Shown here piece after piece: positions 9,822 through 57,495 of a DNA stretch of 64,000 bases; position 1 is the stretch's first letter, and every line of letters starts with the position of its first letter. The notes beneath the pieces are model-generated. The model worked only from the letters and a program-made list of their open reading frames with translations. It searched no databases and was not told the origin of the DNA. Position numbers and translations under genes: made by a program. The stretch comes from Bacteroidetes bacterium ADurb.Bin139. GTDB taxonomy: Bacteria > Bacteroidota > Bacteroidia > Bacteroidales > UBA932. The stretch is taken from positions 1-64,000 of the forward strand of contig MWDM01000003.1 in assembly GCA_002070565.1 (NCBI GenBank), written 5' to 3'.

Positions 9822-9858
9822 TGCTTTATGAATTGAATTTCCAGTCCTTTTCCTAAAA

Positions 9859-9882
9859 GGGACTGTTTTTGGGACTGTTTTT
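9859..9882 (+). repeat. Tandem 12-base repeat upstream of integrase start
   Basis: GGGACTGTTTTT occurs twice in tandem at 9859-9870 and 9871-9882. It lies between the preferred integrase ATG and the tRNA end, so it could be an integrase arm-type or regulatory site. Confidence 0.5.
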
Positions 9883-9941
9883 GCTTTACACAAAGGTAAA
9901 AAAGCGGAAAATGATATGCAAGGAAACCCTTTAAAAACAGG

Positions 9942-9984: not shown

Positions 9985-9992
9985 ATTTCTTG

Positions 9993-10066
9993 TGATCCGG
10001 TTGGGGCTCGAACCCAAGACCTACAGCTTAGAAGGCTGTTGCTCTATCCAACTGAGCTACCGGACC
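9993..10066 (-). tRNA. tRNA-Arg (anticodon TCT)
   Basis: The full cloverleaf is readable: acceptor GGTCCGG pairs with CCGGATC, the D arm contains GCTCAGTTGGATAGAGC, the anticodon stem-loop has loop CTTCTAA with TCT at 10030-10032, and the T arm contains GGTTCGAGCC. The discriminator base is A and CCA is not encoded. The 3' end faces the integrase, which marks this gene as the probable integration target of the element on the left. Confidence 0.95.
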
Positions 10067-14880: not shown

Positions 14881-14883
14881 TTC

Positions 14884-39429: not shown

Positions 39430-40662
39430 ATGACAACATTTCATTTTTCAGTTCCGGGGGTTCGCATAGATGACTATACCTATGAACTGCCTGATCAAAA
39501 AATTGCTAAGTACCCACTTCCTGTCCGACACGATTCAAAATTATTGTGCTACCGTGGCGGCAGGATATCTGATCATTTGTTTCGTGATTTGCCCTCCCTG
39601 CTGCCAAAGGATAGCCTTCTGGTGTTCAATAACACAAAAGTTGTTCCTGCCAGATTGTTTTTCCGCAAGGAAACCGGCGCTCTCATAGAAATTTTCTGCC
39701 TTGAACCGGCCTCTCCCAAAGAATACATACTGGCATTTTCCCAGCATGCATCTTCAACCTGGTATTGTGCTGTAGGTAATGCAAAAAAATGGAAAACCGG
39801 CCATTTGCCCCTGTACAATCCGAAAAATGACCCAAAGCTGGCAAACCTGGGTCTTTCGGCCAGTCTTTTAGGTCAGGAGGCCGACAGGTTCCTGGTCCGT
39901 TTCAGCTGGACTGCCAGTCTGCCTTTTTCCACTGTCCTAGACGCTTCGGGCAGGGTCCCGATTCCCCCTTATCTTAAAAGAGAATCTGAAGATAGTGATC
40001 TGGAGCGATACCAGACTATATATGCCAGAAAGAGAGGATCTGTTGCCGCTCCTACTGCAGGGCTGCATTTCTCTCGAACTGTTATGGATGACCTCCTGAG
40101 AAGGGGGATAAGAATTGGTGAACTGACTTTACATGTGGGTGCAGGCACTTTCAGACCTGTAAAAAGTCATTACATACGCGATCACATTATGCACAGCGAA
40201 CAATTCAGTGTATCAAGGGAGTTTCTTCAGCAGCTGATATCACATAAGGGCCCCGTTGTTTCTGTCGGAACTACTTCCTGCCGCTGCCTGGAAAGCCTTT
40301 ACTACCTGGGGCTGCAGGTGGCCGGGGGAAGGACGCCTTCTTTCGTGGGCCAGTGGGAACCCTATGTGACCCCGTCCGGTATCCCGTACAAGAACTCCCT
40401 GGAGCATTTATGCCTATACATGGACAGGGAGAAAATTCCCACCCTCAATGCCTCTACCCAGATCATCATAGCACCTTCCTACAGGTTCCTGACCACAGAT
40501 ATCCTGATCACAAATTACCACCAGCCAAACTCTACTTTACTGCTGTTGGTTGCTGCCCTGACAGGGGAGGACTGGAGGAAAATTTATGACCATGCACTGA
40601 CTGAAAACTACCGTTTTCTCAGTTACGGCGACTCTTGTTTGTTGTTTAATTCTAATATTTAG
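39430..40662 (+). CDS. queA: S-adenosylmethionine:tRNA ribosyltransferase-isomerase QueA
   Basis: The 410-residue enzyme moves the ribosyl group of SAM to preQ1 in tRNA, making epoxyqueuosine. Motifs: YELPDQKIAKYPLP at the start, VFNNTKVVPARL, RVPIPPYLKRESEDSDLERYQTIYA in the middle, SVAAPTAGLHFS, LHVGAGTFRPV, and TNYHQPNSTLLLLVAAL near the end. It is longer than the E. coli enzyme (about 356). queH, the next queuosine step, lies at 55795-56376 in the same window. Confidence 0.95.
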   Translation: MTTFHFSVPGVRIDDYTYELPDQKIAKYPLPVRHDSKLLCYRGGRISDHLFRDLPSLLPKDSLLVFNNTKVVPARLFFRKETGALIEIFCLEPASPKEYILAFSQHASSTWYCAVGNAKKWKTGHLPLYNPKNDPKLANLGLSASLLGQEADRFLVRFSWTASLPFSTVLDASGRVPIPPYLKRESEDSDLERYQTIYARKRGSVAAPTAGLHFSRTVMDDLLRRGIRIGELTLHVGAGTFRPVKSHYIRDHIMHSEQFSVSREFLQQLISHKGPVVSVGTTSCRCLESLYYLGLQVAGGRTPSFVGQWEPYVTPSGIPYKNSLEHLCLYMDREKIPTLNASTQIIIAPSYRFLTTDILITNYHQPNSTLLLLVAALTGEDWRKIYDHALTENYRFLSYGDSCLLFNSNI

Positions 40663-42322: not shown

Positions 42323-42967
42323 ATGAGCAAACTAATATCAATACAGGAAGCAGTTACGCACATCAAATCCGGCATGACCATCATGGTTGGCGGTTTCCTG
42401 GGTGTAGGCAGTCCTAACCGCATACTGGATGCAATTTTGGAAACAGACGTTAAAGACCTTACCATCATTGCCAACGATACAGGATTCCCTGACAGGGGTC
42501 CGGGAAAACTGATCGTAGCCCGCAGGGTATCCAGTGTTATTACCAGCCACATTGGAACCAATCCCTCTACCGGGGACCAGTACCACGCCGGTTCTTTGAA
42601 AATCACCTTTGTTCCCCAGGGTACGCTCATTGAACGGATACGCTGTGCAGGGGCCGGACTGGGTGGTGTGTTAACCCCTACAGGTCTTGGCACGGTCGTA
42701 CAAGAGGGAAAGCAGGTGATCTGTGTAGACGGCAAGGATTACCTGCTGGAAACCCCCCTCAAAGCCGATGTCGCTCTTTTAGGTGCGAGCGTGGCTGATG
42801 AACTGGGCAATCTGTTTTATAAGGGAAATACACGCAATTTCAACGGTATGATGGCGATGGCTGCCGGTCTGGTCATTGCAGAAGTGAAAGAAATAGTCAA
42901 ACCGGGAGATATCCTGCCTGAAAACGTGCACACACAGTCCATCTTTGTGGACTATCTTGTTAAATAA
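42323..42967 (+). CDS. atoD: CoA-transferase subunit A (acetoacetate/butyrate type)
   Basis: The 214-residue alpha subunit has the class I CoA-transferase signature (MTIMVGGFLGVGSPNRILDA), DTGFPDRGPGKL, and a GAGLGGVLTPTGLGT loop. With the beta subunit at 52226-52879 it moves CoA between acetoacetate and a donor acyl-CoA (acetyl- or butyryl-CoA). It is the first gene of the lysine operon; the partner is about 9.3 kb downstream at the other end of the core. In lysine fermenters it activates the acetoacetate released by Kce. Confidence 0.93.
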   Translation: MSKLISIQEAVTHIKSGMTIMVGGFLGVGSPNRILDAILETDVKDLTIIANDTGFPDRGPGKLIVARRVSSVITSHIGTNPSTGDQYHAGSLKITFVPQGTLIERIRCAGAGLGGVLTPTGLGTVVQEGKQVICVDGKDYLLETPLKADVALLGASVADELGNLFYKGNTRNFNGMMAMAAGLVIAEVKEIVKPGDILPENVHTQSIFVDYLVK

Positions 42968-43002
42968 TAATCACATCTATAAATATTAAAAATCGAATCG
43001 TT

Positions 43003-44247
43003 ATGTCAAAGAAACTAAAACTGGACGTTTCCGATCACATGTATCAGGAAGCACTGAAAATCATTCCCGGCGCTATTGCCGGAATCCGCCGTCCTTACAA
43101 TTTTGTACCCGGAGAGTATCCAATCTATTTTGATCACGCCAAAGGCGGCAGGGTTACCGATGTTGATGGCAATGAATACATAGACATGCTTTGTGCCTAT
43201 GGACCCATTATTATCGGACACCGTGAAGAAGAGATTGACAATGCTGTAATAGAGCAGATGCGGAACAAAGGTTTCTGTTTTTCCCTGACGCAACCCATAC
43301 AGAACCAACTGGCAGAAAAACTCATAGAACTGATCCCCTCAGCCGAGATGGTTTCTTTTGTCAAAACCGGGTCAGATGCCACATCGGTGGCCATCAGGGT
43401 GGCTAGGGCCAGTACAGACAGAATTAAGGTAATCCGTTGCGGTTATCACGGCTGGCATGACTGGTGCGTGGAAGTCAAAGGCGGAATTCCCAGAAAACTA
43501 TGGGAAGATGTCTACGAATTCCATTACAACGAACTGGACGAGCTGGAAGATCTGATGAAACACCATGGAGACGAAACAGCCGCCATCATCATTACGCCGG
43601 TGGGACATCCTTTGGCCGATAAGGTTCAGATGCCAAAGCCGGGTTTCCTGGAGGGCGTACGAGCACTGGCCGACAAATACGGGACCGTCCTTGTTTTTGA
43701 CGAAATCAGAAGCGGTTTCCGCTACGATCTGGGAGGTGCCCAGAAATTGTTTGGTGTCACTCCCGATATTTCCGTCTTTGGCAAAGCCATGGCCAACGGA
43801 TATCCAATCGGGGCTGTGGTAGGAAAGGAAAAATTCATGAAGGTGTTGGCAGACAAGGTATTTCTCTCATCCACTTTCTTCCCTAACAGCCTGGAACAGG
43901 TGGCATCCCTGAAGACTATAGAAATTCTTGAAAGGGATCATATTCTGGATAAGATAAGGGAAAAAGGAGAATTTTTCGGAAAACGGCTGAACCAGATTAT
44001 CAAGAACGTCCCCTATGATGTGGAAGTGTCCGGTATACCCCTGATGCCCTTTATTACGTTTAAAAAGGATGCCGATAACCTATACAAAAAACTCCGCCCG
44101 GGCTTCTATACAGAGCTTATCAGAAGGGGTGTGTTCCTGCAGCCTTACCACCACGGATACATAGCATACCGTCATACAGATCAGGATATTGCCTACGCAG
44201 CGGATATGGTTGAAGAATCATTCGGCGAACTGAAAAAATATATTTAG
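43003..44247 (+). CDS. kat: Class III aminotransferase, predicted 3-aminobutyryl-CoA beta-transaminase (Kat)
   Basis: The 414-residue PLP enzyme resembles glutamate-1-semialdehyde aminotransferases. It has GHREEEI, MVSFVKTGSDATSVAIRVARA, YHGWHDWC, the VFDEIRSGFR cofactor Asp and the Schiff-base Lys K261 in FGKAMANGYPIGAVVG. A class III transaminase at this operon place has been described as a beta-transaminase acting on 3-aminobutyryl-CoA with 2-oxoglutarate (Kat). It replaces the ammonia lyase Kal, for which no gene occurs in the window. The product would be acetoacetyl-CoA plus glutamate. Assignment is from context and family, not from residue-level substrate evidence. Confidence 0.82.
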   Translation: MSKKLKLDVSDHMYQEALKIIPGAIAGIRRPYNFVPGEYPIYFDHAKGGRVTDVDGNEYIDMLCAYGPIIIGHREEEIDNAVIEQMRNKGFCFSLTQPIQNQLAEKLIELIPSAEMVSFVKTGSDATSVAIRVARASTDRIKVIRCGYHGWHDWCVEVKGGIPRKLWEDVYEFHYNELDELEDLMKHHGDETAAIIITPVGHPLADKVQMPKPGFLEGVRALADKYGTVLVFDEIRSGFRYDLGGAQKLFGVTPDISVFGKAMANGYPIGAVVGKEKFMKVLADKVFLSSTFFPNSLEQVASLKTIEILERDHILDKIREKGEFFGKRLNQIIKNVPYDVEVSGIPLMPFITFKKDADNLYKKLRPGFYTELIRRGVFLQPYHHGYIAYRHTDQDIAYAADMVEESFGELKKYI

Positions 44248-44265
44248 CATCTATAAATATTTGTT

Positions 44266-45093
44266 ATGGATAAATTGATCATTACCGCTGCAATATGTGG
44301 CGCTGAAGTTCTGAAGGAACACAATCCCGCCGTACCTTATACGGTGGAGGAATGTGTGCGTGAAGCCCTTTCGGCCTACCAGGCCGGCGCAAGCATCATC
44401 CACCTGCACGTACGTTACGATGACGGGACACCAACACAGGACAAGGAACGTTTTCGCGTGGTGATGGATGCGATTGCCAGGGCATGCCCCGGGATTATCA
44501 TTCAGCCTTCTACCGGAGGAGCTGTAGGAATGACCAATGATGAAAGGCTTCAGCCCACGGAGCTGAACCCCGAAATGGCTACCCTTGATTGCGGAACGCT
44601 CAATTTTGGCGGCGATGAGATCTTTGAAAACACTGAAAACACAATAAAATATTTCGGGCAGCGCATGATAGAACGGGGTATCAAACCCGAGCTAGAAGTC
44701 TTTGACAAAAGCATGATAGAAATGGCCCTGCGTCTTCACAAAAAGGGATATATCCTCAGTCCTATGCACTTTGATTTTGTCATGGGAGTAAACGGTGGGA
44801 TAGGCGGTTCCCTCAGGGATTTTGTATTCCTGCGCGGGAGTATTCCTCCTGATGCCACATACACGGCAGCCGGCCTTGGACGCTATGAAGCGCCCCTGGC
44901 TGCTGCGGCCATTATCGACGGAGGTCACGTCAGGGTGGGTTTTGAAGACAATGTATACCTGTCCAGAGGGGTTCTGGCCAAATCAAACGGTGAGCTTGTA
45001 GCCAAAGTGGTACGCCTGGCCTGTGAGCTGGGACGGGATATTGCCACTCCCGATGAAGCCCGTCAAATCCTTGGCCTGCCATTAAAAAAATGA
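44266..45093 (+). CDS. kce: 3-keto-5-aminohexanoate cleavage enzyme Kce (BKACE family)
   Basis: The 275-residue zinc enzyme has the metal-binding HLHVR motif (H46, H48) and a third ligand Glu in VGFEDNVY (E227). It condenses 5-amino-3-oxohexanoate with acetyl-CoA and cleaves it to acetoacetate and 3-aminobutyryl-CoA. It lies 18 bases after the transaminase gene that would take the 3-aminobutyryl-CoA. Confidence 0.95.
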   Translation: MDKLIITAAICGAEVLKEHNPAVPYTVEECVREALSAYQAGASIIHLHVRYDDGTPTQDKERFRVVMDAIARACPGIIIQPSTGGAVGMTNDERLQPTELNPEMATLDCGTLNFGGDEIFENTENTIKYFGQRMIERGIKPELEVFDKSMIEMALRLHKKGYILSPMHFDFVMGVNGGIGGSLRDFVFLRGSIPPDATYTAAGLGRYEAPLAAAAIIDGGHVRVGFEDNVYLSRGVLAKSNGELVAKVVRLACELGRDIATPDEARQILGLPLKK

Positions 45094-45126
45094 ACTGAAA
45101 CCAAATAATTTATCACCATCACACAT

Positions 45127-46170
45127 ATGAAAAAAGGAAACAAATACGGTCTCCACAGGGTCATTGAACCCAAAGGTGTCCTTCCCCAGCCGGCAAACAA
45201 GCTGGACAACAATATGGACGAGATTTACGACAACGAGATCCTGATAGATGTCAGGACCCTGAATGTTGACTCGGCAAGCTTTACCCAGATAGAGAAACAG
45301 GCCGGAGGCGACAAGGCCAAAATTGCGCAGATAATGCTCGATATTGTGGCCAAACAGGGAAAGCACAGGAATCCGGTCACCGGATCGGGAGGGATGTTGC
45401 TGGGTGTGGTGGAGAAAATTGGGGAAGCGCTGGAAGGCAAAATTGACCTTAAGGTTGGGGACAAGATTGCCACCTTGGTTTCCCTTTCTCTAACCCCCCT
45501 GCGCATTGACAAGATTAAAGACATAAGGCCCGATATTGACCAGGTGGACATTGACGGGAAGGCCATCCTTTTTGAGAGCGGCATTTATGCCAGGATTCCG
45601 GACGACATACCTGAAACCCTCGCGCTTTCAGCCCTTGACGTGGCAGGAGCTCCTGCACAGACAGCCAAGCTTGTAAAACCCGGAGACACGGTTCTTATCA
45701 TTGGTGCCGGTGGAAAATCGGGTATGCTCTGCAGCTACGAGGCCAGGAAAAGGGCCGGGGTTACCGGCAAGGTGATAGGGCTCTGCCACAGTGAACGCTC
45801 TACCAAACGTATGCAGGATCTGGGTTTTTGCGATCATGTCTTTTCAGCCGATGCCACCCAGCCGGTCGCCGTCCTGGAAAAGATACAGGAGCTTACAAAA
45901 GGACAGTTATGTGATATAACCATCAACAATGTGAACATTCCCGATACCGAGATGACTTCCATACTCTGTACCAAAGATTCCGGGATGGTTTACTTTTTCT
46001 CCATGGCCACCAGTTTCACGAAAGCGGCGCTAGGAGCAGAAGGAGTCGGTTCCGATGTCACCATGATCGTTGGAAACGGCTATACGAAAGGTCACGCAGA
46101 GATCACGCTGCAGTTGCTCAGGGAAAGTGAAAAGCTCCGCAAGATCTTTACAGAACTTTACGCATCATAA
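45127..46170 (+). CDS. kdd: 3,5-diaminohexanoate dehydrogenase Kdd
   Basis: The 347-residue NAD-dependent enzyme oxidises L-erythro-3,5-diaminohexanoate to 5-amino-3-oxohexanoate, with oxidative deamination. It opens with KYGLHRVIEPKGVLPQPANK, a highly typical Kdd N-terminus. The Rossmann loop GAGGKSGMLCSYEARKRAG is around residue 195, and the C-terminus has a conserved GNGYTKGHAEI stretch. Its substrate comes from KamDE and its product goes to Kce. Confidence 0.95.
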   Translation: MKKGNKYGLHRVIEPKGVLPQPANKLDNNMDEIYDNEILIDVRTLNVDSASFTQIEKQAGGDKAKIAQIMLDIVAKQGKHRNPVTGSGGMLLGVVEKIGEALEGKIDLKVGDKIATLVSLSLTPLRIDKIKDIRPDIDQVDIDGKAILFESGIYARIPDDIPETLALSALDVAGAPAQTAKLVKPGDTVLIIGAGGKSGMLCSYEARKRAGVTGKVIGLCHSERSTKRMQDLGFCDHVFSADATQPVAVLEKIQELTKGQLCDITINNVNIPDTEMTSILCTKDSGMVYFFSMATSFTKAALGAEGVGSDVTMIVGNGYTKGHAEITLQLLRESEKLRKIFTELYAS

Positions 46171-46181
46171 TTTTTACATAG

Positions 46182-47429
46182 ATGAAAGAATCAAGAAGAA
46201 AACAACTGTTTCCAGAAGTTACGGACCAGGAATGGAATGACTGGAAATGGCAGATCCGCAACCGCATTGTTAACCTGGAACAGTTGAGAAAATACATCAG
46301 CCTTACCCCGGAAGAGGAAGAAGGCGTGCAGGAATCTCTGAAAATGCTCCGCATGGCCATCACACCTTACTATCTGAGCCTGATAGACCCTGATAATCCG
46401 GATTGTCCCATAAGAAAACAAGCCATACCTACCAAAATGGAGACGTACCGGTCTCCGGCAGATTTGCTGGATCCTTTGCATGAAGATGAAGATTCACCTG
46501 TGCCAGGACTGACGCACCGGTATCCGGACAGGGTCCTTTTCCTGATCACAGACCAGTGTTCCATGTATTGCCGTCATTGCACAAGACGCCGCTTTGCAGG
46601 CCAGAAGGACCACGAAGCATCGGGCGACAGGATCCAGGAATGTATCAATTATATTGCCCGTACACCACAGGTAAGGGATGTGCTCTTGTCTGGGGGAGAC
46701 CCACTGACCATGAATGATTCGCGTCTGGAGTCCATTATTGCCCGCCTGCGTGAAATTCCCCATGTCGAAATTATTCGTATAGGAACACGCACCCCGGTCG
46801 TATGCCCCCAGCGTATTACCCCCGGGCTGATGACCATGCTCCGAAAGTACCATCCCATTTGGATCAATACTCATTTCAATCATCCCGGCGAAATTACCGC
46901 AACATCCAGGGCTGCCTGTGAAATGATGGCCGATGCCGGCATACCGGTGGGAAACCAGAGCGTTTTACTGCGCGGGGTGAACGATTGCGTGCATATCATG
47001 AAAGAACTGGTTCACAAGCTGGTGCTCATACGCGTACGCCCATACTATATTTATCAGTGCGATTTATCCATGGGGCTGGAACATTTCAGGACACCGGTTT
47101 CCAAGGGGATCGAAATCATCGAAGGGCTTCGCGGACATACATCAGGCTATGCCGTTCCGACTTTTGTGGTGGATGCACCGGGGGGTGGCGGCAAGATCCC
47201 TGTGATGCCCACCTATATGATCAGCCATGCGCCGGGACGAATGATCCTGCGCAACTACGAGGGAGTAATTACAACATACACAGAACCAACTAACTATATA
47301 AACGAATGTCATTGCAAAAATTGCAGCGACAAGGTAAGTCTTGAAGGAGTCTCGGGTATTCTCCAAGGGCAGCAATTATCTCTGGAACCGTCTTATCTTG
47401 CAAGAAAAGAACGAAATCACAAGAAATGA
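46182..47429 (+). CDS. kamA: Lysine 2,3-aminomutase KamA
   Basis: The 415-residue radical-SAM, PLP enzyme converts L-lysine to L-beta-lysine, the first step. It has the cluster motif C126-X3-C130-X2-C133 (CSMYCRHC), SGGDPLT, and K338 in GGGGKIP, the PLP lysine position. The TRRRFAG segment follows the cluster. It needs an iron-sulfur cluster, SAM and PLP and should be cytosolic. It is 11 bases downstream of kdd and 4 bases before kamB. Confidence 0.97.
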   Translation: MKESRRKQLFPEVTDQEWNDWKWQIRNRIVNLEQLRKYISLTPEEEEGVQESLKMLRMAITPYYLSLIDPDNPDCPIRKQAIPTKMETYRSPADLLDPLHEDEDSPVPGLTHRYPDRVLFLITDQCSMYCRHCTRRRFAGQKDHEASGDRIQECINYIARTPQVRDVLLSGGDPLTMNDSRLESIIARLREIPHVEIIRIGTRTPVVCPQRITPGLMTMLRKYHPIWINTHFNHPGEITATSRAACEMMADAGIPVGNQSVLLRGVNDCVHIMKELVHKLVLIRVRPYYIYQCDLSMGLEHFRTPVSKGIEIIEGLRGHTSGYAVPTFVVDAPGGGGKIPVMPTYMISHAPGRMILRNYEGVITTYTEPTNYINECHCKNCSDKVSLEGVSGILQGQQLSLEPSYLARKERNHKK

Positions 47430-47433
47430 TTAA

Positions 47434-48450
47434 ATGCCTTTTGTAGATCAGATCGTCCGTTGCGGCAGCCTTTCTGTTGTGGGTTTGGGTAAAAATACCG
47501 GAAAGACAGAGTGTCTGAGGTATGTCATCAAACGGTTGTCTGAAATGCAAAAAGTAGTGGCTGTAACATCGATAGGCGTTGATGGAGAAAGAACAGACCA
47601 GGTCACACACACTGCAAAGCCCGACATTTTCCTGGACAGGGGCATGTATTTTACCACGGCTGCTTCCTATTACCTGGAAAAACGTTTTGATGCAGAGATA
47701 TGCCATGTAGGGGAGCACACAACTGTGTTGGGCAAGATGGTTACAGCCAGAGCCCTGGAAAGGGGGAAAATGATCCTTGCCGGGCCTTCTGACACTGTTT
47801 CTCTACGGGAGTGGATAATGCAGATACCTAAAAGGTTTCACGTGGATGTTTGCCTGGTGGACGGTGCCATTTCACGTCTTAGTCCTGCTTCTCCTGTGGT
47901 GACGGCCTCGATGGTCCTGGCCACGGGAGCTGCCTATTCTCCGCACATGAAGACACTGGTAGAAAAAACGCGCTATGTGTACGATACCATATGCCTTCCC
48001 CGCGCACCTGAGGACCTTGTGAAAAAACTGGAAGGCATTACCAACGGAGTACGGGCCGTTACCCCGCAGGGCGATGTGACAGAACCCATAGCCGGACAGG
48101 CCCTGCTTTCAGAGCAGGTCCGGCAGGTCCTTGAAAAGTGCGGTGACAGGCTGTATGTTCCGGGTGTGGTGAGCAACATACTTCTGAAAGCGTTGGGAGA
48201 AAGAAAGAATGCAAGTGAAACCGAGCTGTATATCAGGGATTTTACACGCATTTTTGCAGAACCGCGTGTGTTTTACACATTCCTGCGCAAGGGTGGCCGC
48301 ATTTTTCAGCTGTATAAGACCAACCTGCTGGCTGTATGCGTTAATCCCGTTTCTCCTGATGGAGTCCGGCTTGATTCCGGGCAACTTGTAGATAAGATTC
48401 AGCAGGCCATCGAGGTGCCTGTTTATGATATAAAAAGAATGGAAAAATGA
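47434..48450 (+). CDS. kamB: KamB-like P-loop protein of the lysine operon
   Basis: The 338-residue protein has a Walker A-like motif GLGKNTGKTE near residues 17-26. It is located between kamA and the MutS-like kamC, the order known from lysine-fermenting operons where it is called KamB. Biochemical function is not established; with KamC it has been proposed to reactivate the cobalamin-dependent lysine 5,6-aminomutase. It overlaps kamC (ATGA). Confidence 0.8.
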   Translation: MPFVDQIVRCGSLSVVGLGKNTGKTECLRYVIKRLSEMQKVVAVTSIGVDGERTDQVTHTAKPDIFLDRGMYFTTAASYYLEKRFDAEICHVGEHTTVLGKMVTARALERGKMILAGPSDTVSLREWIMQIPKRFHVDVCLVDGAISRLSPASPVVTASMVLATGAAYSPHMKTLVEKTRYVYDTICLPRAPEDLVKKLEGITNGVRAVTPQGDVTEPIAGQALLSEQVRQVLEKCGDRLYVPGVVSNILLKALGERKNASETELYIRDFTRIFAEPRVFYTFLRKGGRIFQLYKTNLLAVCVNPVSPDGVRLDSGQLVDKIQQAIEVPVYDIKRMEK

Positions 48451-49856
48451 CTTTTGCTCGTTATTCTGAACGAATTGAAGGGCTTCACTATCTGGCCGGT
48501 AAAATGGAATTATCCGGTTCCCGTGTACGCCGTTACCTGATGCAGGAGTTGTTTTGCACCAGTCAGAAGGTTCTGGAATCGAATTTGGATATTGTCCAAA
48601 ATGCCCTTGAACTCCTTAATGACAAAAGGTTCAACAACGGCATCATGCAACTGCGCCATCTTTTCACCCAGGTACACGACATCAGAGGAACGTTGGATGC
48701 CCTGCGTGAGAACCGGGTTCTGGACGAGGTGGAACTTTTTGAAATCAAGTATTTTGCAGCCTTGTGCAGGGATTTTATAACGTTGCTCGGCACCCTCGGT
48801 TTCAAGCATGAAAACCTGCAATCCCTTCAGAAGACATTTGACCTTCTTGACCCTGTTGGGAACGGAATGGTATCCTTCCATCTCTACGATGCCTACAGCC
48901 AGGCTTTATCTCAGGCCAGGAAGCTTGCAAAAGGAATCGATCCTGAAAAGGAAACGGACAGGTGGAATGATGCCCGGGACCGGATCAGAGAGGAAGAATT
49001 GGCTGTAATGAAGAGGCTTTCTTCTGAATTGAGCCCGATGCATATCGTTTTGCAGGATAATTTTGACCGTATCGCCCGCCTGGAGATTTGGTTTGCAAAA
49101 GCCGCACTGGCCAAACGTTACGGCATGGTCAGACCCCGGATAGCAACAGGACCGGATCGCTTTGTTTTCCAGGCAGAAGGCATGATTAACCCCGTTATTG
49201 CCGATACCCTGAAATCTGTTAACAGGGTGTTCCAGCCTGTATCCATTTCACTGGAAAGCGGCCCCTGTCTTCTGACTGGTGCCAACATGAGTGGCAAGAC
49301 CGTGGTTTTAAAAACACTGGCCCTGATACAGGCGCTTGCACAGTTTTCTTTTTTTGTGCCTGCCCGGAGCGCGTCAATTCCCCTGGTAAAGGACGTTTTT
49401 CTGGTCATAGGCGACAAACAGGACCAATACAGGGGCTTGTCATCATTTGCAGCCGAAATGCTTGAATTGGACAGAATAATGGCCAGGATCAGGGGAGGGA
49501 ACAAGGTGCTTGTTCTTGCCGATGAACCGGCCAGAACTACAAATCCGGCCGAAGGAGCAGCCATTTTATGTGCCCTGGTTGAATTCCTGGACCGCCACAA
49601 GACAATGTCTTTGATAAGCACGCATTACGGAGACCTGGGCCTTTCCTGCCGTAAACTGCGTGTTAGCGGCTTTGACAGCACACAGGTAAAAGGACGGCTG
49701 GATCCGTTGATGATGAACCAACATATGAATTACAGCCTGATTGAGGAAAAAGAAGAGTCTGTTCCCATGGAAGCCTTGCATATAGCACGTTTGCTGGGCG
49801 TAGACGAGACTTTTATCCAATCTGCACAACAATATGTGAAAAACACAAAAAAATGA
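48447..49856 (+). CDS. kamC: KamC, MutS-like ATPase of the lysine operon
   Basis: The 469-residue protein has MutS-family core and ATPase motifs: Walker A in TGANMSGKTVVLK near residue 280, a Walker B ADEPARTTNPAEG near 355, and STHYG. It lacks the mismatch-recognition N-terminal domain of MutS, so it is not a repair protein. The place between kamB and kamD and translational coupling on both sides (ATGA, ATGA) suggest a part in maturing or reactivating the KamDE mutase; this is inferred. Confidence 0.85.
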   Translation: MTFARYSERIEGLHYLAGKMELSGSRVRRYLMQELFCTSQKVLESNLDIVQNALELLNDKRFNNGIMQLRHLFTQVHDIRGTLDALRENRVLDEVELFEIKYFAALCRDFITLLGTLGFKHENLQSLQKTFDLLDPVGNGMVSFHLYDAYSQALSQARKLAKGIDPEKETDRWNDARDRIREEELAVMKRLSSELSPMHIVLQDNFDRIARLEIWFAKAALAKRYGMVRPRIATGPDRFVFQAEGMINPVIADTLKSVNRVFQPVSISLESGPCLLTGANMSGKTVVLKTLALIQALAQFSFFVPARSASIPLVKDVFLVIGDKQDQYRGLSSFAAEMLELDRIMARIRGGNKVLVLADEPARTTNPAEGAAILCALVEFLDRHKTMSLISTHYGDLGLSCRKLRVSGFDSTQVKGRLDPLMMNQHMNYSLIEEKEESVPMEALHIARLLGVDETFIQSAQQYVKNTKK

Positions 49857-51409
49857 GAGAATCAAAATTAGGGCTTGATTTTAAAAAAGTAGAAAGTGCC
49901 AGGACCATGGCCGGTGAAATAGCCGGCCAGGTACAGCAATTCGTTGAAAATTATACCACCGTTGCAGTCGAAAGAACACTGTGCCGGCTGGTGGGAATTG
50001 ACGGAACAGATATCGATGGTATTCCACTGCCCAATCTTGTGGTTGATGCAGTCAGCCAAAAGGGGATTCTGGGAGATGGTGTGCTTCGTTTCCTGGGCAT
50101 AGCCGTCAGCCGCACGGGTAAGAGTCCTGTACAGATTGCAGGTGAAATTGCAGCCGGGGAATTTGATTTTTCATGTTTGGAAATCAATAAACCGGAAAAT
50201 ATTGCCCGGGCGCTCAGCCCCTACATAGAGGATAGCGTTTCAAGGATAAGGGCTAAAAGACAGTCGAGGGAAGAAGGTATAAAAAAGTATGGGGAAGGCC
50301 CCCGTCCTCTTCTCTATGTGATCGTAGCCACCGGAAATATTTATGAAGACGCCGTCCAGGCCCAGGCAGCTGCCCGCCAGGGTGCAGACATTGTTGCGGT
50401 AATCCGCACTACGGGACAATCATTGCTTGATTACGTTCCCTATGGTGCCACTACAGAAGGTTTTGGAGGGACATATGCCACCCAGGAAAATTTCAGGATC
50501 ATGCGCAAAGCCCTGGACCAGATCATGCCCGAAACCGGTCGTTATGTCAGGTTGTGCAATTACTGCTCAGGCCTGTGTATGCCCGAGATCGCCATTATGG
50601 GAGCACTGGAAGGGCTGGATGTGATGCTTAACGATGCCCTCTACGGGATCCTGTTTCGGGACATCAATATGCAAAGGACCCTGGTAGACCAGTATTTTTC
50701 CAGGATAATTAACGGATTTGCCGGGGTGATCATCAACACCGGTGAAGACAATTACCTTACTACGGCAGATGCCTTTGAAGAAGCCCATACGGTCCTTGCC
50801 TCGGATTTTATCAATGAACAACTGGCAATCATAGCCGGCATACCGGAAGAACAGATGGGCCTGGGACATGCCTTTGAAATGGACCCTGAACTGGAAAATG
50901 CATTCCTGTATGAACTGGCGCAGGCGCAGATGACCCGTGAAATCTTCCCGCGTGCCCCACTCAAATACATGCCTCCCACCAAGTTCATGACCGGAAACAT
51001 TTTCAAGGGTCATATCCAGGATGCCCTGTTCAATATTGCAGGTATCTGGACCGGGCAGGGCATTCAGCTGCTGGGCATGCCTACAGAAGCCATCCATACA
51101 CCCTTTATGAGCGACAGGTATCTTTCCATTGAGAACGCACGGTATATCTTCAACAATTTCAAAGACATCGGGCGAGAAATTGAATTCACTAAGGACGGGA
51201 TCATCAGGCGGCGCGCATCGGAAGTGTTGGATAATGCCTGCAAATTGCTTGAAGACGTGAAGGAAGAAGGACTATTTACGGCCCTTGAAAAAGGCAAATT
51301 TGCCGGAGTTCGCAGGCATAGGGAAGGGGGAAAAGGTCTGGACGGGGTGACCCGGAAATCACCCCTATATTGGAATCCATTTATTGAATTATTTAAAGGA
51401 AAAAGATAA
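49853..51409 (+). CDS. kamD: Lysine 5,6-aminomutase alpha subunit KamD
   Basis: The 518-residue subunit holds the TIM-barrel that binds adenosylcobalamin and substrate (RTTGQSLLDYVPYGATTEGF, GGTYATQENFRIMRKAL, NYCSGLCMPEIA). With KamE it converts beta-lysine to 3,5-diaminohexanoate using adenosylcobalamin and PLP. The gene overlaps kamC and is 2 bases upstream of kamE. No cobalamin riboswitch is visible upstream. Confidence 0.96.
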   Translation: MRESKLGLDFKKVESARTMAGEIAGQVQQFVENYTTVAVERTLCRLVGIDGTDIDGIPLPNLVVDAVSQKGILGDGVLRFLGIAVSRTGKSPVQIAGEIAAGEFDFSCLEINKPENIARALSPYIEDSVSRIRAKRQSREEGIKKYGEGPRPLLYVIVATGNIYEDAVQAQAAARQGADIVAVIRTTGQSLLDYVPYGATTEGFGGTYATQENFRIMRKALDQIMPETGRYVRLCNYCSGLCMPEIAIMGALEGLDVMLNDALYGILFRDINMQRTLVDQYFSRIINGFAGVIINTGEDNYLTTADAFEEAHTVLASDFINEQLAIIAGIPEEQMGLGHAFEMDPELENAFLYELAQAQMTREIFPRAPLKYMPPTKFMTGNIFKGHIQDALFNIAGIWTGQGIQLLGMPTEAIHTPFMSDRYLSIENARYIFNNFKDIGREIEFTKDGIIRRRASEVLDNACKLLEDVKEEGLFTALEKGKFAGVRRHREGGKGLDGVTRKSPLYWNPFIELFKGKR

Positions 51410-51411
51410 TT

Positions 51412-52203
51412 ATGGGCGGAGGTTTGTATTCAACAGAAGTGCAGGACTTTGATAAAACACTGGATTTGAAAAGGGTAAAGCCCTATGGTGACACCATGAA
51501 CGACGGGAAAGTCCAGCTTAGCTTTACCTTGCCGGTTCCCTCGGGGCCGGAAGCCATAGAAGCAGCCAAACAATTGATTCGCAGCATGGGAATGGACAAC
51601 CCCCAGGTTGTCTTTACAAAGGAGCTGACACCCGGTTTCACTTTTTTCAACGCATACGGGAGTCTTCGCCACACCGTGAATTATACCACCATCCGCGTAC
51701 CCAAGGTTGATAGCAAGGTGATGGATATGCAGCAGGTGGATGACTACATCCGGGAACACATAGGCCGCAAACTGGTCATGGTGGGGGCAAGTACCGGATC
51801 AGATGCACACACCGTGGGTATCGATGCCATCATGAACATGAAAGGATATGCCGGTCATTACGGTTTGGAGCGCTACGCCATGATTGAAGCACACAATCTT
51901 GGATCACAGGTGTCCAACGAAGAACTGATTGCAAAGGCCATCCACCATTCGGCCGATGCCGTGCTTGTTTCCCAGACGGTTACGCAGAAAGATATTCATA
52001 TAAAGAATTGTACCGAGCTCATAGAGATGGCCGAGGCCGAGGGAATCAGAAACCGCATGATACTTGTTTGCGGCGGACCCCGGATATCGCATGAACTGGC
52101 CAAAGAGCTGGGCTTTGATGCCGGTTTCGGTGTCAACACCTATGCCAATGATGTGGCATCCTTCGTAGCCCAGGAGTATGTAAAAAGAAAAGCAAAACAA
52201 TAA
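51412..52203 (+). CDS. kamE: Lysine 5,6-aminomutase beta subunit KamE
   Basis: The 263-residue subunit contains the cobalamin-binding DxHxxG motif at D131-A-H133-T-V-G136 and K144, the position of the PLP-binding lysine in the characterised enzyme. The Rossmann-like B12 domain ends with GFGVNTYANDVASFVA. The pair with KamD is complete and should be active. Confidence 0.96.
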   Translation: MGGGLYSTEVQDFDKTLDLKRVKPYGDTMNDGKVQLSFTLPVPSGPEAIEAAKQLIRSMGMDNPQVVFTKELTPGFTFFNAYGSLRHTVNYTTIRVPKVDSKVMDMQQVDDYIREHIGRKLVMVGASTGSDAHTVGIDAIMNMKGYAGHYGLERYAMIEAHNLGSQVSNEELIAKAIHHSADAVLVSQTVTQKDIHIKNCTELIEMAEAEGIRNRMILVCGGPRISHELAKELGFDAGFGVNTYANDVASFVAQEYVKRKAKQ

Positions 52204-52225
52204 AAACATTTTTAAGCATAAAATC

Positions 52226-52879
52226 ATGGACAAGAATCAAATCAGGGAAACCATTGCACGTCGCGCAGCCATAGAGTTGAAAGACGGAGACGTTGTAAAT
52301 CTGGGTATAGGACTGCCCACACAGGTTTTGAAATACCTGTCGCCTAAAGTAAAAGTGATTATGCAATCTGAGAATGGATGCATGGGTATGGGAAATCCGC
52401 CGGAACCAGGCCAGGAAGATCCTAACCTGATCGATGCCGGGGGAGGGCCCATCACATTGCAGCCGGGGGGTTCCTGTTTTGATTCCGCCACATCGTTTGC
52501 CATAATCCGGGGAGGACATGTGGATGTAACCATGCTGGGATCGTTGCAGGTAGATGAAAAAGGAAACATTGCAAACTGGTCAATACCCGGGATCAAGACA
52601 CCGGGAATTGGAGGGGCCATGGACCTGATCACCGGAGCAAAAAAAGTCATCGTGACTATGGAGCACACTGCCAAAGGACAACATAAAATTTTGGAACATT
52701 GCACCCTGCCCCTGACGGCGGCAGCCCAGGTAGACCGGATTATTACAGAAATGGGCGTTATGGATGTTACTCCTGACGGCCTTGTGCTCAAGGAAATCAA
52801 CAGTGAATTTACCCTGGAACAGGTACAGCAGGCCACCGGGTGCCGGCTGATTATATCGGAAAATTTAAAGAATATGTAG
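52226..52879 (+). CDS. atoA: CoA-transferase subunit B (acetoacetate/butyrate type)
   Basis: The 217-residue beta subunit has the catalytic Glu in SENG (MQSENGCMGMG), GGGPITLQPG and the GGHVDVTMLGSLQVDEKGN block. It works with the alpha subunit encoded at 42323-42967. Having the two subunits at the two ends of the mutase core rather than adjacent is unusual. Confidence 0.94.
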   Translation: MDKNQIRETIARRAAIELKDGDVVNLGIGLPTQVLKYLSPKVKVIMQSENGCMGMGNPPEPGQEDPNLIDAGGGPITLQPGGSCFDSATSFAIIRGGHVDVTMLGSLQVDEKGNIANWSIPGIKTPGIGGAMDLITGAKKVIVTMEHTAKGQHKILEHCTLPLTAAAQVDRIITEMGVMDVTPDGLVLKEINSEFTLEQVQQATGCRLIISENLKNM

Positions 52880-52899
52880 TTTATCATAAAATCAATATC

Positions 52900-54102
52900 A
52901 TGGAAAAAATATACATCGTAGCAGCTAAACGTACAGCCGTAGGAAAAATGATGGGATCACTAACCAGTGTGAGCCCTGCCGAAATGGCATCGATAGTCAT
53001 TCGCAACATCCTGGAAGAAACAAAACTGGATCCCTCTGTAATAGATGAAGTCATTGTGGGGAACGTCCTGATGGCAGGACAAAAACAGGGTATTGCCCGC
53101 CAGGCGGCGGTTAATGCCGGAATTCCGTATCATGTTCCGGCCTATGGCATCAACATGATCTGCGGAAGCGGCATGAAATCGATCATGAACGGATGTCAGT
53201 CAATCCTTGCCGGGCAGGCATCGGTGGTACTTGCCGGAGGGGTAGAAAACATGTCTTCCTCGGGATTTGTGATGCATGGGATAAGGGAAGGTATCAAGAT
53301 GGGGGATTTTAAAGCGATAGATCATATGGTATGTGACGGGCTGACAGATGCTTTTGGAAATTATCACATGGGTATTACCGCCGAGAACGTTGCCCAAAAG
53401 TATCATATAACACGTGAGCAGCAGGATGAATTTGCATTCGGTTCGCAACAGAAAGCAATTCATGCCATTGATACCGGAAAATTCAAAGACGAAATTGTTC
53501 CCGTCAGCATTACCCGTAAGAAGGACATCATTGTCTTTGATACGGATGAATTCCCCAACAGGACGACAACACCGGAGAAAATGGCTTCCCTGCGTCCCGC
53601 TTTCAAAAAAGACGGAACGGTCACTGCTGCAAACGCCTCGGGAATCAACGACGGAGCTTCTTTTGTATTGCTTGCTTCCGAAAAGGCAACGAACGACCTT
53701 GGCCTGATTCCCCTTGCAGAAGTGGTGGCTACGGCACAGGCAGGTGTTGACCCTGCCTTTATGGGCATGGGACCTGTACCGGCTATTGACAAGGTGCTTA
53801 AAAGGGTCCGGGTAAAACTGGATCAGATGGATGTTGTAGAACTCAACGAAGCTTTTGCCGCGCAATCCCTTGGCGTCATGATAGAGCTGCAACAACAGCA
53901 AGGTGTGGACCGTTCGTGGCTTGATACGCATTGCAATGTCAACGGGGGGGCCATAGCCCTTGGACATCCCATAGGAGCATCCGGGAACAGGATCACCGTT
54001 ACATTGATCCATGAAATGAAACGCAGGAAAGCCAGCTACGGACTTGCTTCATTGTGCATTGGGGGAGGAATGGGAACTGCACTGGTCCTGAGGAACGTCT
54101 GA
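52900..54102 (+). CDS. Acetyl-CoA C-acetyltransferase (thiolase)
   Basis: The 400-residue thiolase has the nucleophile Cys in INMICGSGMKS, the NVNGGAIALGHPIGASG block and the C-terminal CIGGGMGTALVL with the second catalytic Cys. A longer frame begins inside atoA; ATG 52900 (MEKIYIVAAKRTAVG) is the family start. It cleaves acetoacetyl-CoA with CoA into two acetyl-CoA, which takes the products of Kat and of the CoA-transferase toward acetate and ATP. Confidence 0.95.
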   Translation: MEKIYIVAAKRTAVGKMMGSLTSVSPAEMASIVIRNILEETKLDPSVIDEVIVGNVLMAGQKQGIARQAAVNAGIPYHVPAYGINMICGSGMKSIMNGCQSILAGQASVVLAGGVENMSSSGFVMHGIREGIKMGDFKAIDHMVCDGLTDAFGNYHMGITAENVAQKYHITREQQDEFAFGSQQKAIHAIDTGKFKDEIVPVSITRKKDIIVFDTDEFPNRTTTPEKMASLRPAFKKDGTVTAANASGINDGASFVLLASEKATNDLGLIPLAEVVATAQAGVDPAFMGMGPVPAIDKVLKRVRVKLDQMDVVELNEAFAAQSLGVMIELQQQQGVDRSWLDTHCNVNGGAIALGHPIGASGNRITVTLIHEMKRRKASYGLASLCIGGGMGTALVLRNV

Positions 54103-54143
54103 TTTATCTGACCGGGGGAAGGGTTATTTCAAAAAAATACTTA

Positions 54144-54161
54144 TTTTTAACCAGTTAAAAA
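54144..54161. repeat. Small inverted repeat before the acyl-CoA ligase gene
   Basis: TTTTTAAC and GTTAAAAA are perfect complements with a 2-base loop, in the 68-base gap between the thiolase and ligase genes. It could be a weak terminator, an operator, or an RNA processing signal; nothing further supports one choice. Confidence 0.35.
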
Positions 54162-54170
54162 AAATCGGTT

Positions 54171-55817
54171 ATGAAAACTCATTATCTGGAATATATCCAA
54201 CATAGTATTGTCAAGGCATGGAATTCGCCCGGTCTCACCAATTACAAGAAGAATTCCTATACTTACGGCGAAATAGCCCAACATGTTGCCCGGCACCATG
54301 TCCTGTTTGAAAAGCTGGGATTGAAAAAAGGGGATAAGGTAGCGCTATGCGGTCCCAACAGTGCAGAATGGGGCATATCATTCCTGGCAGTCACTTCTTA
54401 CGAAGCCGTCGCTGTGCCTTTACTGAACGATTTTCTGCCCGATAGCGTAATGACACTGACAGACCATTCAGAAGCCTGTATCTTTTTTGTAAGTCGGGAT
54501 ATCTGGGAAAAGACAGACATCGCCAGGATGCCACTCCTGAAACTTGTGATTTGCCTGGAAGGCTTTGAACTTCTTTATGCTAAAGACAAGGCCATTAAGC
54601 AGGTATATGACTCACTGGACGCTCTGTTCCAGGCAAAATACCCCGACGGATTTGGTCCCGAACAAGTTGACTATCCCACCGATAATTTTGATGATCTGGC
54701 GCTTATAAACTACACTTCAGGCACAACCAGTGCCCCAAAGGGAGTTATGCTGACTTACAGAAATATCAGTTCCAATATCCAGTACGGACAAAGTGAAATT
54801 CCAAACGGTCCTGACGACACGCTGGTCTCCATGCTTCCAATGGCTCATATGTACGGAATGGCCTTTGAATTCCTTTACCAGCTGGCCGGAGGAACCCAGG
54901 TCTTTTTCTTGGGGAAAGTCCCTTCTCCCAAGGTACTGCTGGATGCCCTGGCAACTGTCAGGCCCTATATGGTGATCACCGTACCCCTTGTGATAGAAAA
55001 AATCTTCAAGAGTTCTGTTTTTCCAACCATCCGGAAACCGATTGTCAAATCCGTCATGAAAGTTCCCGGTCTTGCATCTGTCATTTACAAACAGATCCGC
55101 AAGAAACTGCTTCATGCTTTTGGCGGAAGGATACGCACCATTGTCATTGGCGGTGCGGCCATCAACCAGGAAGTGGAAGATCTGATGAAAGCTGTGAAAC
55201 TGCCTTATACCGTGGGCTACGGAATGACTGAATGCGGACCGCTTCTTTCTTATGAGGACACCAGGAAATTTGTTAAGGGATCCTGCGGAAAACCGGTGCA
55301 CAGGATGTCGCTCAGAATTGATTCCGACGATCCCCGCACCATCGTGGGAGAAATTCAGGCCCGCGGAGACAATGTCATGTTGGGCTATTACAAAAATCCC
55401 GAAGCAACGGCAGCTGCCTTCACCAAAGACGGGTGGCTACGTACCGGTGATCTTGGGATTATGGATAAGGAAAATAATGTATTTATAAAGGGGCGCAGCA
55501 AGAACCTGATCATTGGGGCCAGCGGACAGAATATTTATCCCGAAGAGATCGAAGACAAGCTAAACAATCAACCTTACGTGGTGGAATCAATTGTTGTAGA
55601 GCGTGATAAAAAACTGGTAGCCCTGGTATTTCCCGATTACGACCGGGTGTCTCAGAAATCGCTGGATTCTATGCACCTGGCTCAATTAATGGAAGAAAAC
55701 CGTATGAGGCTTAATATGCTCTTACCGGTTTTCAGCCGTATAGCCAAAATTGAATTACAACCTGAAGCTTTTGAAAAGACACCCAAACGCAGTATCAAGC
55801 GTTTCCTTTACAGATAG
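54171..55817 (+). CDS. AMP-dependent acyl-CoA synthetase/ligase (long-chain type)
   Basis: The 548-residue ANL enzyme has the P-loop YTSGTTSAPKGVMLTY, the GYGMTECGP motif, the hinge WLRTGDLG, and the C-terminal KGRSKNLIIGASGQNIYPEEI with a catalytic Lys (K in KRSIKRFLY, near the end). It activates a carboxylic acid to acyl-CoA with ATP. Being last in the lysine operon, it could activate acetoacetate or a related acid, but sequence features are those of the long-chain type, so the substrate is uncertain. Confidence 0.88.
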   Translation: MKTHYLEYIQHSIVKAWNSPGLTNYKKNSYTYGEIAQHVARHHVLFEKLGLKKGDKVALCGPNSAEWGISFLAVTSYEAVAVPLLNDFLPDSVMTLTDHSEACIFFVSRDIWEKTDIARMPLLKLVICLEGFELLYAKDKAIKQVYDSLDALFQAKYPDGFGPEQVDYPTDNFDDLALINYTSGTTSAPKGVMLTYRNISSNIQYGQSEIPNGPDDTLVSMLPMAHMYGMAFEFLYQLAGGTQVFFLGKVPSPKVLLDALATVRPYMVITVPLVIEKIFKSSVFPTIRKPIVKSVMKVPGLASVIYKQIRKKLLHAFGGRIRTIVIGGAAINQEVEDLMKAVKLPYTVGYGMTECGPLLSYEDTRKFVKGSCGKPVHRMSLRIDSDDPRTIVGEIQARGDNVMLGYYKNPEATAAAFTKDGWLRTGDLGIMDKENNVFIKGRSKNLIIGASGQNIYPEEIEDKLNNQPYVVESIVVERDKKLVALVFPDYDRVSQKSLDSMHLAQLMEENRMRLNMLLPVFSRIAKIELQPEAFEKTPKRSIKRFLYR

Positions 55818-56376
55818 AGGAGGAGGGTAAAGAAAACAAGCACCCGCAATAATTCTGGCGGTATATATTAAATGATTGTGACAATTCAACGGAACGGCGA
55901 AAACCGTTCCGTTTTTTGAAATCTGAAGGCAGGTAGATCAGTTTGTTGTATCGAACGGCCAGATCTTCCCCTGTTTTATTGATCAGCAAAGCATTTTTGT
56001 GTGGGCTGACAGTCAGTGTGGTACAAAAAAATGAATAACCATTTTCATTGGCATAACGGGCAGTTTCCTCCAACCTGAGCTTGTAGCATATGGCACAGCG
56101 GAGCCCGCCTTCGGGTTCCTGTTCATATCCTTTAACAGAATTCAGAAAAACATCGGGGCGGTACTGACCTTCCAGGAAAGGGACTTTACTGCCGTAGGCC
56201 TCTTCTGTGAATCGCTTTGCTTCATTCCTTCTCAGGTTATATTCATCGTGCGGGGCAATATTGGGATTGTAGAAAAAAACGGATACATCATAGTCCGGGA
56301 ATAAACGTTCCAGGGCTGTTGTGGAACAGGGACCACAACAGGCATGAAGCAAAAGTCTGGGGGTGTGGTTTTTCAT
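55795..56376 (-). CDS. queH: Epoxyqueuosine reductase QueH
   Basis: The 193-residue protein starts at ATG 56374-56376 (MKNHTPRLLLHACCGPCST). It carries the CCGPC motif, RCAICYKLRL, TTLTVSPHKN and the KKRNGFRRSVELS segment, followed by Cys-rich YRQNYCGC. These are the metal and cluster ligands of QueH, which reduces epoxyqueuosine to queuosine in tRNA. It is convergent with the lysine operon and overlaps its last 23 bases. Confidence 0.95.
   Translation of the reverse strand: MKNHTPRLLLHACCGPCSTTALERLFPDYDVSVFFYNPNIAPHDEYNLRRNEAKRFTEEAYGSKVPFLEGQYRPDVFLNSVKGYEQEPEGGLRCAICYKLRLEETARYANENGYSFFCTTLTVSPHKNALLINKTGEDLAVRYNKLIYLPSDFKKRNGFRRSVELSQSFNIYRQNYCGCLFSLPSSSICKGNA
55889..55918 (+). terminator. 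Terminator of the lysine operon, inside convergent queH
   Basis: ACGGAACGG (55889-55897) and CCGTTCCGT (55904-55912) form a perfect 9-base stem with loop CGAAAA, followed by six T residues. It lies 72 bases after the acyl-CoA ligase stop. On the opposite strand the same DNA codes for the conserved KKRNGFRRS segment of QueH. Confidence 0.75.
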
Positions 56377-56388
56377 AGTTATTCTTTG

Positions 56389-56425
56389 CAAATATAAAGG
56401 TTTTGATTGATTTTAATTACTTTTG
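56389..56425. promoter_or_regulatory. Divergent promoter boxes for queH and the RND operon
   Basis: Minus strand TATATTTG at 56389-56396 lies 12 bases before the queH ATG. Plus strand TACTTTTG at 56418-56425 lies 20 bases before the ATG at 56446. Both match TAnnTTTG. Confidence 0.5.
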
Positions 56426-56445
56426 CCTTGATTAACCAATCTGTT

Positions 56446-57495
56446 ATGGAATTGTTCAAAAAATCTGGTATTCCGATTGTTTTTGGCCTTCTGGCATTTA
56501 TTTCTTCCTGTGGGTCTAAGTCGGATAAAAACCAGCAATTACCACTTCCGGTAAATGTACGTGTTCATACTGTCTCGGAAACCACTTTAGCGCTGGAAAG
56601 GGAGTATGTTGGTGTGTTGGAAGAATCAAACAATGTCTTGTTAAGTTTTCCGGCTCCTGGAAAAATTAAAAACGTTTATGTCACAGAAGGGCAAGAGGTC
56701 CGGGAAGGACAATTGCTTGCCCAAACAGATGCCGGGTTGCTGGAGAACATGCATGCCACTACGGTAGCCACACTCAGGCAGGCAGAAGATGCTTACCGGA
56801 GAATGACCCTGTTGTACGAATCCCAGAGCCTGCCCGAAATTCAATACATCGATATCCAGACTAAACTGGAACAGGCCAGGTCTGCCGAGCGCATATCGGC
56901 AATAGCCCTGGCAGAAACCAAACTCATTGCCCCACAGCGCGGGGTGGTGGAAAAACGCATGATGGAACCCGGCATGAATGTGTTACCGGATCAGCCGGTA
57001 CTGACTTTGTTGAATACGCACCATCCCGTGGTCATGGTTTCTGTCCCTGAAAATGAGATATTTGACACCCATACCGGACAGGCGGCCCGCATTGTGGTAG
57101 GAGCACTCAGGAACCTGGAACTAAAGGGTAAGGTAACAGAAAAAGGCGTCCAGGCACACCCGTATACCCACGGTTACCAGGTCAGGATTTCTCTTGAACG
57201 TGAAGTCCCGGGATTGCTTCCGGGTATGGTCTGCAAGGTTTTTCTGAGTAACCTGCCCGCAGAGGTTGCGCTGGTGGTGCCGGTTCGCGCCGTGCTTCCT
57301 CTTGAATTCGGTAAAGGTCATTTTGTATGGCTCCTGGACCAGGATAATGTAGCACAAAGAAAGATGGTCCGGGTGGGTGAGATTGTGCCGGGCGGGATCT
57401 CCGTTTTGAAAGGAATATCTCCCGGTGACAGGATCGTGGTGGAAGGGTATCAGAGATTGAGCGAAAACATAAAGGTAACCGTCACAAATGAGTAG
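56446..57495 (+). CDS. RND efflux periplasmic adaptor (membrane fusion) lipoprotein
   Basis: The 349-residue protein starts at ATG 56446 (MELFKKSGIPIV); a longer frame from 56407 is unlikely. It has a lipoprotein signal (LLAFISSCG). The MFP layout follows: barrel-sandwich half (GKIKNVYVTEGQEVREGQLL), a short coiled-coil hairpin, the second half (TKLIAPQRGVVEKRMMEPG), then beta-barrel. It links the inner-membrane pump to the outer-membrane channel. It overlaps the pump gene by 8 bases. Confidence 0.92.
   Translation: MELFKKSGIPIVFGLLAFISSCGSKSDKNQQLPLPVNVRVHTVSETTLALEREYVGVLEESNNVLLSFPAPGKIKNVYVTEGQEVREGQLLAQTDAGLLENMHATTVATLRQAEDAYRRMTLLYESQSLPEIQYIDIQTKLEQARSAERISAIALAETKLIAPQRGVVEKRMMEPGMNVLPDQPVLTLLNTHHPVVMVSVPENEIFDTHTGQAARIVVGALRNLELKGKVTEKGVQAHPYTHGYQVRISLEREVPGLLPGMVCKVFLSNLPAEVALVVPVRAVLPLEFGKGHFVWLLDQDNVAQRKMVRVGEIVPGGISVLKGISPGDRIVVEGYQRLSENIKVTVTNE

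Follow-up and report, generated by a model that had tools for sequence, protein, structure and literature searches.

Gene organization at the junction of the lysine cluster and queH

The window, that is, the whole 64,000-nucleotide stretch of DNA that was analyzed, contains a lysine-fermentation gene cluster whose last gene meets queH tail to tail. The features at this junction are as follows.

42323..55817, + strand: lysine-fermentation gene cluster, all genes on the same strand
54171..55817, + strand: AMP-binding acyl-CoA ligase-like gene, the last before the hairpin
55795..56376, - strand: queH, epoxyqueuosine reductase QueH (PF02677, E 2e-64; solved QueH 7lc5, E 3.7e-31)
55795..55817: 23 bp shared tail to tail by the ligase and queH coding sequences
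55888..55897, + strand: 5' arm of the predicted terminator hairpin, AACGGAACGG
55898..55903, + strand: loop CGAAAA, over a Phe codon
55904..55913, + strand: 3' arm of the predicted terminator hairpin, CCGTTCCGTT
55912..55917, + strand: run of six T, antisense to two invariant Lys codons (AAA AAA)

The cluster encodes CoA-transferase A, an aminotransferase III-like protein, KCE, KDD, lysine 2,3-aminomutase, KamB, KamC, KamD, KamE, CoA-transferase B, a thiolase, and the ligase. The identity of queH was supported by the PF02677 match and by the conserved Cys motifs CCGPC and YCGC in the alignment. The order of lysine genes, ligase, reversed queH, and efflux genes was the same in relatives as far as the stretches reach. 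Two queuosine genes, queA (window positions 39430-40662) and queH, lie on either side of the lysine-fermentation cluster.

A predicted terminator hairpin within the queH reading frame

Positions 55888-55917 of the + strand read AACGGAACGG-CGAAAA-CCGTTCCGTT-TTTT, a perfect 10-bp stem with a 6-nt loop, which lies antisense to the QueH codons KKRNGFRRSV. The original prediction had described a 9-bp perfect stem with six T residues within the queH frame, over the KKRNGFRRS codons. The antisense position agrees with our analysis, as do the perfect stem and the T run; the count itself was off, with one T entered in both stem and tail (a 9-bp stem is followed by five T and a 10-bp stem by four).

The element has the sequence features expected of an intrinsic terminator. 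The stem, with 10 bp, six GC pairs, a loop of 6 nt, and a stem-loop energy of -15.2 kcal/mol, surpasses the usual minimum of at least 5 bp with GC content and a short loop, and the T run adjoining the 3' arm has a tail score of 3.21 (10-bp stem) or 3.79 (9-bp stem). It starts 71 nt beyond the stop of the ligase, just downstream of a same-strand transcription unit, and no nearer candidate with a comparable stem plus tail was found between that stop and the hairpin. The + strand folded at -16.1 kcal/mol (z -2.2, with 7 of 200 shuffles equally good) and the - strand at -18.6 kcal/mol (z -3.6, with 0 of 200). On the - strand the sequence after the stem reads GAATTG; because this queH-strand flank has no T run, the hairpin should be one-directional.

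A search of Rfam at the gathering score over window positions 54000-57000 gave no matches, and a standard terminator scan of the window did not list the site at 55888-55917, presumably because that scan lets the stem run on into the T residues. A strict scan (at least 8 contiguous bp, at least 4 GC pairs, a loop of 3 to 8, then TTTT) of both strands of the 64-kb window returned two sites only, the hairpin at 55888-55917 and one at 9842-9865. When applied to 449,249 bases, consisting of the window and 20 stretches of genomes G005, G004, and G008, it returned 16 sites, 7 of them in intergenic DNA (6% of the bases are non-coding) and 9 within ORF calls, the gene calls in these background stretches being greedy ORFs rather than those of a trained caller.

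Several other hairpins were observed. The second strict site in the window (9842-9883; CAGTCC...GGGACTG TTTTT) is intergenic, near a tRNA-Arg at 9992-10066, with GGGACTGTTTTT in tandem. A similar hairpin, CGGCACGGTGGT...ACCACCGTG followed by TTTCT, is found after a gene in several genomes of the genus (window position 14883, - strand; L174, L182, L188) and is perhaps a terminator or attenuator. Genome G008 (L193:961-994, contig C11 near 12,760) has a second hairpin, TACAGGCAAACTCCTGAGTTGCCTGTA, followed by at least seven T. It lies antisense within an ORF that, judged by its translation, is MarR-like and shares a 4-bp tail-to-tail overlap with a gene of phosphoribosyltransferase-like translation.

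Distribution of the hairpin in the genus

Thirteen genomes of the genus were sampled. An orthologue of queH and one of the ligase were present in the same 12, and G006 (82% complete) lacked both; in 11 of the 12 the two genes were adjacent and convergent. Six genomes (G000, G005, G001, G004, G003, and G008) carried the same 10-bp stem, each with the 23-bp overlap, with the stem plus T run at +71/72 to +95/96 past the ligase stop. A seventh, G010, had a different perfect 10-bp stem, AGAGCGACGG-AAT-CCGTCGCTCT-TTTT, over the same codons and at +69 to +91. Since this stem encodes SDGFRRS, the bases have changed and the pairing has stayed.

The expectation in the original prediction that the hairpin would be kept wherever the gene order is kept thus held for 7 of the 11 adjacent convergent genomes, one of them with the stem rebuilt from other bases, and failed in the rest. 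G002 has a 55-nt gap between the genes and, in place of a queH stem, an intergenic ligase-strand hairpin (dG -15.3) with a long T run, and no clear hairpin-plus-T was found in G007, G009, or G012. In G011 (L089), ligase and queH are separated by ~1.9 kb, including a long ORF in the queH direction, and thiolase and ligase by ~3 kb; here too there is a long intergenic ligase-strand hairpin (dG -29.9, short T run) and no strong queH hairpin.

The stem of the six genomes has most simply one origin, and because of this shared descent the six are not independent. The stem of G010 would most simply be a second gain, since G010 sits on another branch. In the ligase tree G012 lies inside the shared-stem clade, yet it has no stem, and its QueH groups with that of G002 (support 0.87-0.88); loss or replacement of queH therefore seems likely in G012.

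A Val-to-Ile change in G004 (GTT to ATC) results in two G-U pairs and no mismatch in the antisense RNA and in two mismatches in the sense RNA. This one case points to the antisense strand, as do the hairpins of G002 and G011, which lie on the ligase strand outside queH.

Synonymous codons under the hairpin

The original prediction had proposed that a coding constraint and a termination signal share the same bases, and had suggested comparing synonymous positions in queH of relatives; the codon comparison supports this reading. Across the six genomes with the shared stem, 108 queH codon columns had one amino acid in all six. Mean pairwise codon identity was 0.93 in the eight hairpin columns versus 0.60 in the other 100 (20,000 permutations, p 0.0016). 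A stratified test in which amino acids were matched, and 406 ligase columns were added to the queH pool, gave p 0.00014 for the eight columns; for the seven arm and tail columns, the observed identity was 1.00 and the expected 0.57, a value reached in 0 of 50,000 draws. The only hairpin codon that varied among the six genomes, with the amino acid identical, was the Phe codon in the loop. A four-genome subset gave a weaker result (p 0.022). In the six genomes without the shared stem, the hairpin codons were ordinary (0.47 versus 0.45, p 0.45).

The longest queH stretch identical across the six genomes, 17 nt, covers the T run and one arm. The T run is not independent evidence because it derives from two invariant Lys codons and AAA is strongly preferred, being used for 63 of the 73 other Lys codons that the six queH genes contain. 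Selection on a hairpin nested in coding sequence is the best reading of these codon patterns.

Chance expectation and the QueH motif

In recoding trials the six proteins with the shared stem were held fixed and synonymous codons were drawn from each genome's own usage. A stem of at least 8 bp appeared anywhere in queH in 0.6-0.9% of 1,500 whole-gene trials, and much of this rate was contributed by the KKRNGFRRS motif, where such a stem forms most easily. Recoding of the motif (20,000 trials) produced stems of at least 8 bp at a rate of 0.5-1.0% and stems of at least 10 bp at 0.03-0.07%. For G010 the local chance of at least 10 bp was 0.00045 per genome.

Outside the genus we collected 80 QueH loci from named genomes, whose titles point mostly to Clostridia and Bacilli, and dropped the 12 without the motif pattern. 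None of the remaining 68 genes had a stem of at least 8 bp (one had 6 bp), which shows that a hairpin is no automatic consequence of the protein motif; by a looser energy criterion (dG < -6, tail > 2.5), something was found in 6 of the 68. The hairpin as a general property of QueH was hence rejected for strong stems only. A repeat or uptake sequence was also rejected, because the arm sequence occurs a single time per genome (in 5 of the 13 genus genomes). A fixed protein-binding palindrome is unlikely, as G010 uses other bases and another spacer length.

The motif itself, called conserved in the original prediction, is so in part: among 16 aligned QueH sequences, K155, K156, G159, and S163 were invariant and R162 nearly so, and R157, N158, F160, and R161 varied. 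Residues 157-158 were Arg-Asn in all six genomes with the shared stem; in the remaining members of the genus they were QD, KD, QN, KD, SD, or QN. No antisense terminator of 8 bp arose when KD, QD, and similar pairs were each given 4,000 uniform synonymous codings; G010 has its own putative terminator with the pair SD. It is conceivable, if rather doubtful, that the neighbor's terminator shaped the residues, and not only the codons, of the unrelated enzyme QueH, with the invariant Lys-Lys as a ready-made donor of the U run and the motif as a repeat landing place for convergent terminators.

Wider sampling gave a QueH match in 39 of 295 genomes of the order and 7 of 395 of the phylum, mostly of a different type with NWRKGG (typed among the loci read, with L190-L192 left out). 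These loci do not test the hairpin because they mostly have NWRKGG-type QueH in place of the motif. QueH of this genus (L001-L012) has FKK..G..RS where most QueH elsewhere in the family and order (L014-L020 and most of L027-L048) has NWRKGG, which suggests that the gene has a different origin.

Interpretation as a probable antisense-encoded terminator

We consider it probable (about 0.72), on the sequence evidence, that the hairpin is a Rho-independent (intrinsic) terminator of the lysine-fermentation operon transcripts. In the proposed mechanism, RNA polymerase would leave the ligase gene and transcribe a 3' untranslated region of ~100 nt that is antisense to the last part of queH; this RNA would fold through AACGGAACGG/CCGUUCCGUU, and the polymerase would be released at the U run. 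The U run would come from the two invariant lysines (AAA AAA) and the two arms from the Arg-Asn-Gly and Arg-Ser codons, and selection on the antisense hairpin would freeze synonymous codons beyond anything that the QueH protein requires. Because the 23-bp gene overlap leaves no intergenic room, the signal would be placed within queH codons. We infer that the polymerase stops at the T run, that the lysine cluster forms a single transcript, and that the benefit would be to avoid antisense transcription of queH or collision with it. The support from pairing, namely the G-U pairs of G004, the alternative stem of G010, and the frozen synonymous codons, has its counterpoint in the three adjacent convergent genomes that have no such element.

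The main rival reading, which we regard as improbable, is a Rho-trimmed end, in which Rho terminates the operon further on and the antisense hairpin blocks the trimming 3' exonucleases. Conservation and the preference for the ligase strand would look the same under this reading, and it fits the scarcity of intrinsic terminators at convergent ends in the genus. A loose scan placed a hairpin-plus-T at 8 of 86 convergent versus 23 of 276 codirectional gene ends, without the expected enrichment, and a contiguous-stem scan (at least 6 bp) placed one at 3 of 43 convergent junctions. Intrinsic terminators seem to be sparse in this genus, where Rho may do most of the work. A T run immediately behind the stem, as found in all seven genomes and in G002, would not be needed for protection from trimming, yet the Lys codons give a T run anyway.

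Even less probable is a role of the sense RNA in queH mRNA, such as slowing ribosomes or protecting the message. The sense RNA does fold slightly better than the antisense RNA in five of the six genomes with the shared stem (-17.6 or -17.7 versus -15.8), and the stem of G010 is likewise more stable in sense, a counterpoint to the terminator reading. Against a sense role, the G004 substitution breaks two sense pairs and no antisense pair, strong stems are lacking from all 68 outside QueH genes, and G002 and G011 have their hairpin after the ligase and outside queH.

That the motif codons pair by chance and have no function is very unlikely, since, easily as a stem forms at this motif and free as the T run from the Lys pair is, synonymous codons are frozen across diverged genomes and G010 has a second stem against low local odds.

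Significance and comparison with known systems

The locus offers a compact natural case in which one strand carries a conserved enzyme motif and the other very probably a transcription stop, with controls from relatives in which the stem is the same, rebuilt, moved to an intergenic gap, or absent. If the terminator reading is true, scans restricted to intergenic regions can miss the terminators of gene-dense convergent operons, and such terminators can bias the codon choice, and perhaps the residues, of the neighboring gene, which would mislead studies of codon usage and synonymous rates at these gene ends.

A literature search, covering titles and abstract openings, found none on a terminator inside queH. 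Judging from the parts of the sources consulted, the hairpin belongs to a known kind, since predicted in-gene terminators have already been described (PMC5381666, PMC1852404). TransTermHP scores structures inside genes as well, according to the portions of its description consulted, and our element resembles that class in its GC-containing stem, its short loop, and a T tail placed directly behind what is probably the final gene of an operon; it differs in being wholly contained in the convergent gene's coding sequence (PMC1852404).

Also close are the terminators predicted for convergent gene pairs of Bacillus cereus, for which the sections consulted report that the stems are under selection and show compensatory switches as well as G-U intermediates (Safina et al. 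2017, PMC5381666). An opposite-strand terminator was sought there for the second gene, and three cases inside that gene were excluded from the bidirectional class. Stem selection, compensatory and G-U changes, and in-gene location are shared with our hairpin. The difference is that a conserved enzyme motif is encoded opposite our hairpin, whereas in those sections the in-gene cases were not analyzed as dual-coding.

The bidirectional terminators of Zymomonas mobilis, as far as that account was consulted, likewise place a hairpin between convergent transcripts (PMC7566282), but here the T run is on one strand only and the other flank is GAATTG. In Rickettsia prowazekii, by the portion of the report consulted, most convergent transcripts have no site-specific stop (PMC3027695); transcripts there similarly enter the convergent gene and antisense RNA is made, whereas our case involves a specific, retained site. 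Intrinsic terminators are a known class, and examples within a convergent gene have been predicted before; what this case adds is an unusually good set of natural controls.
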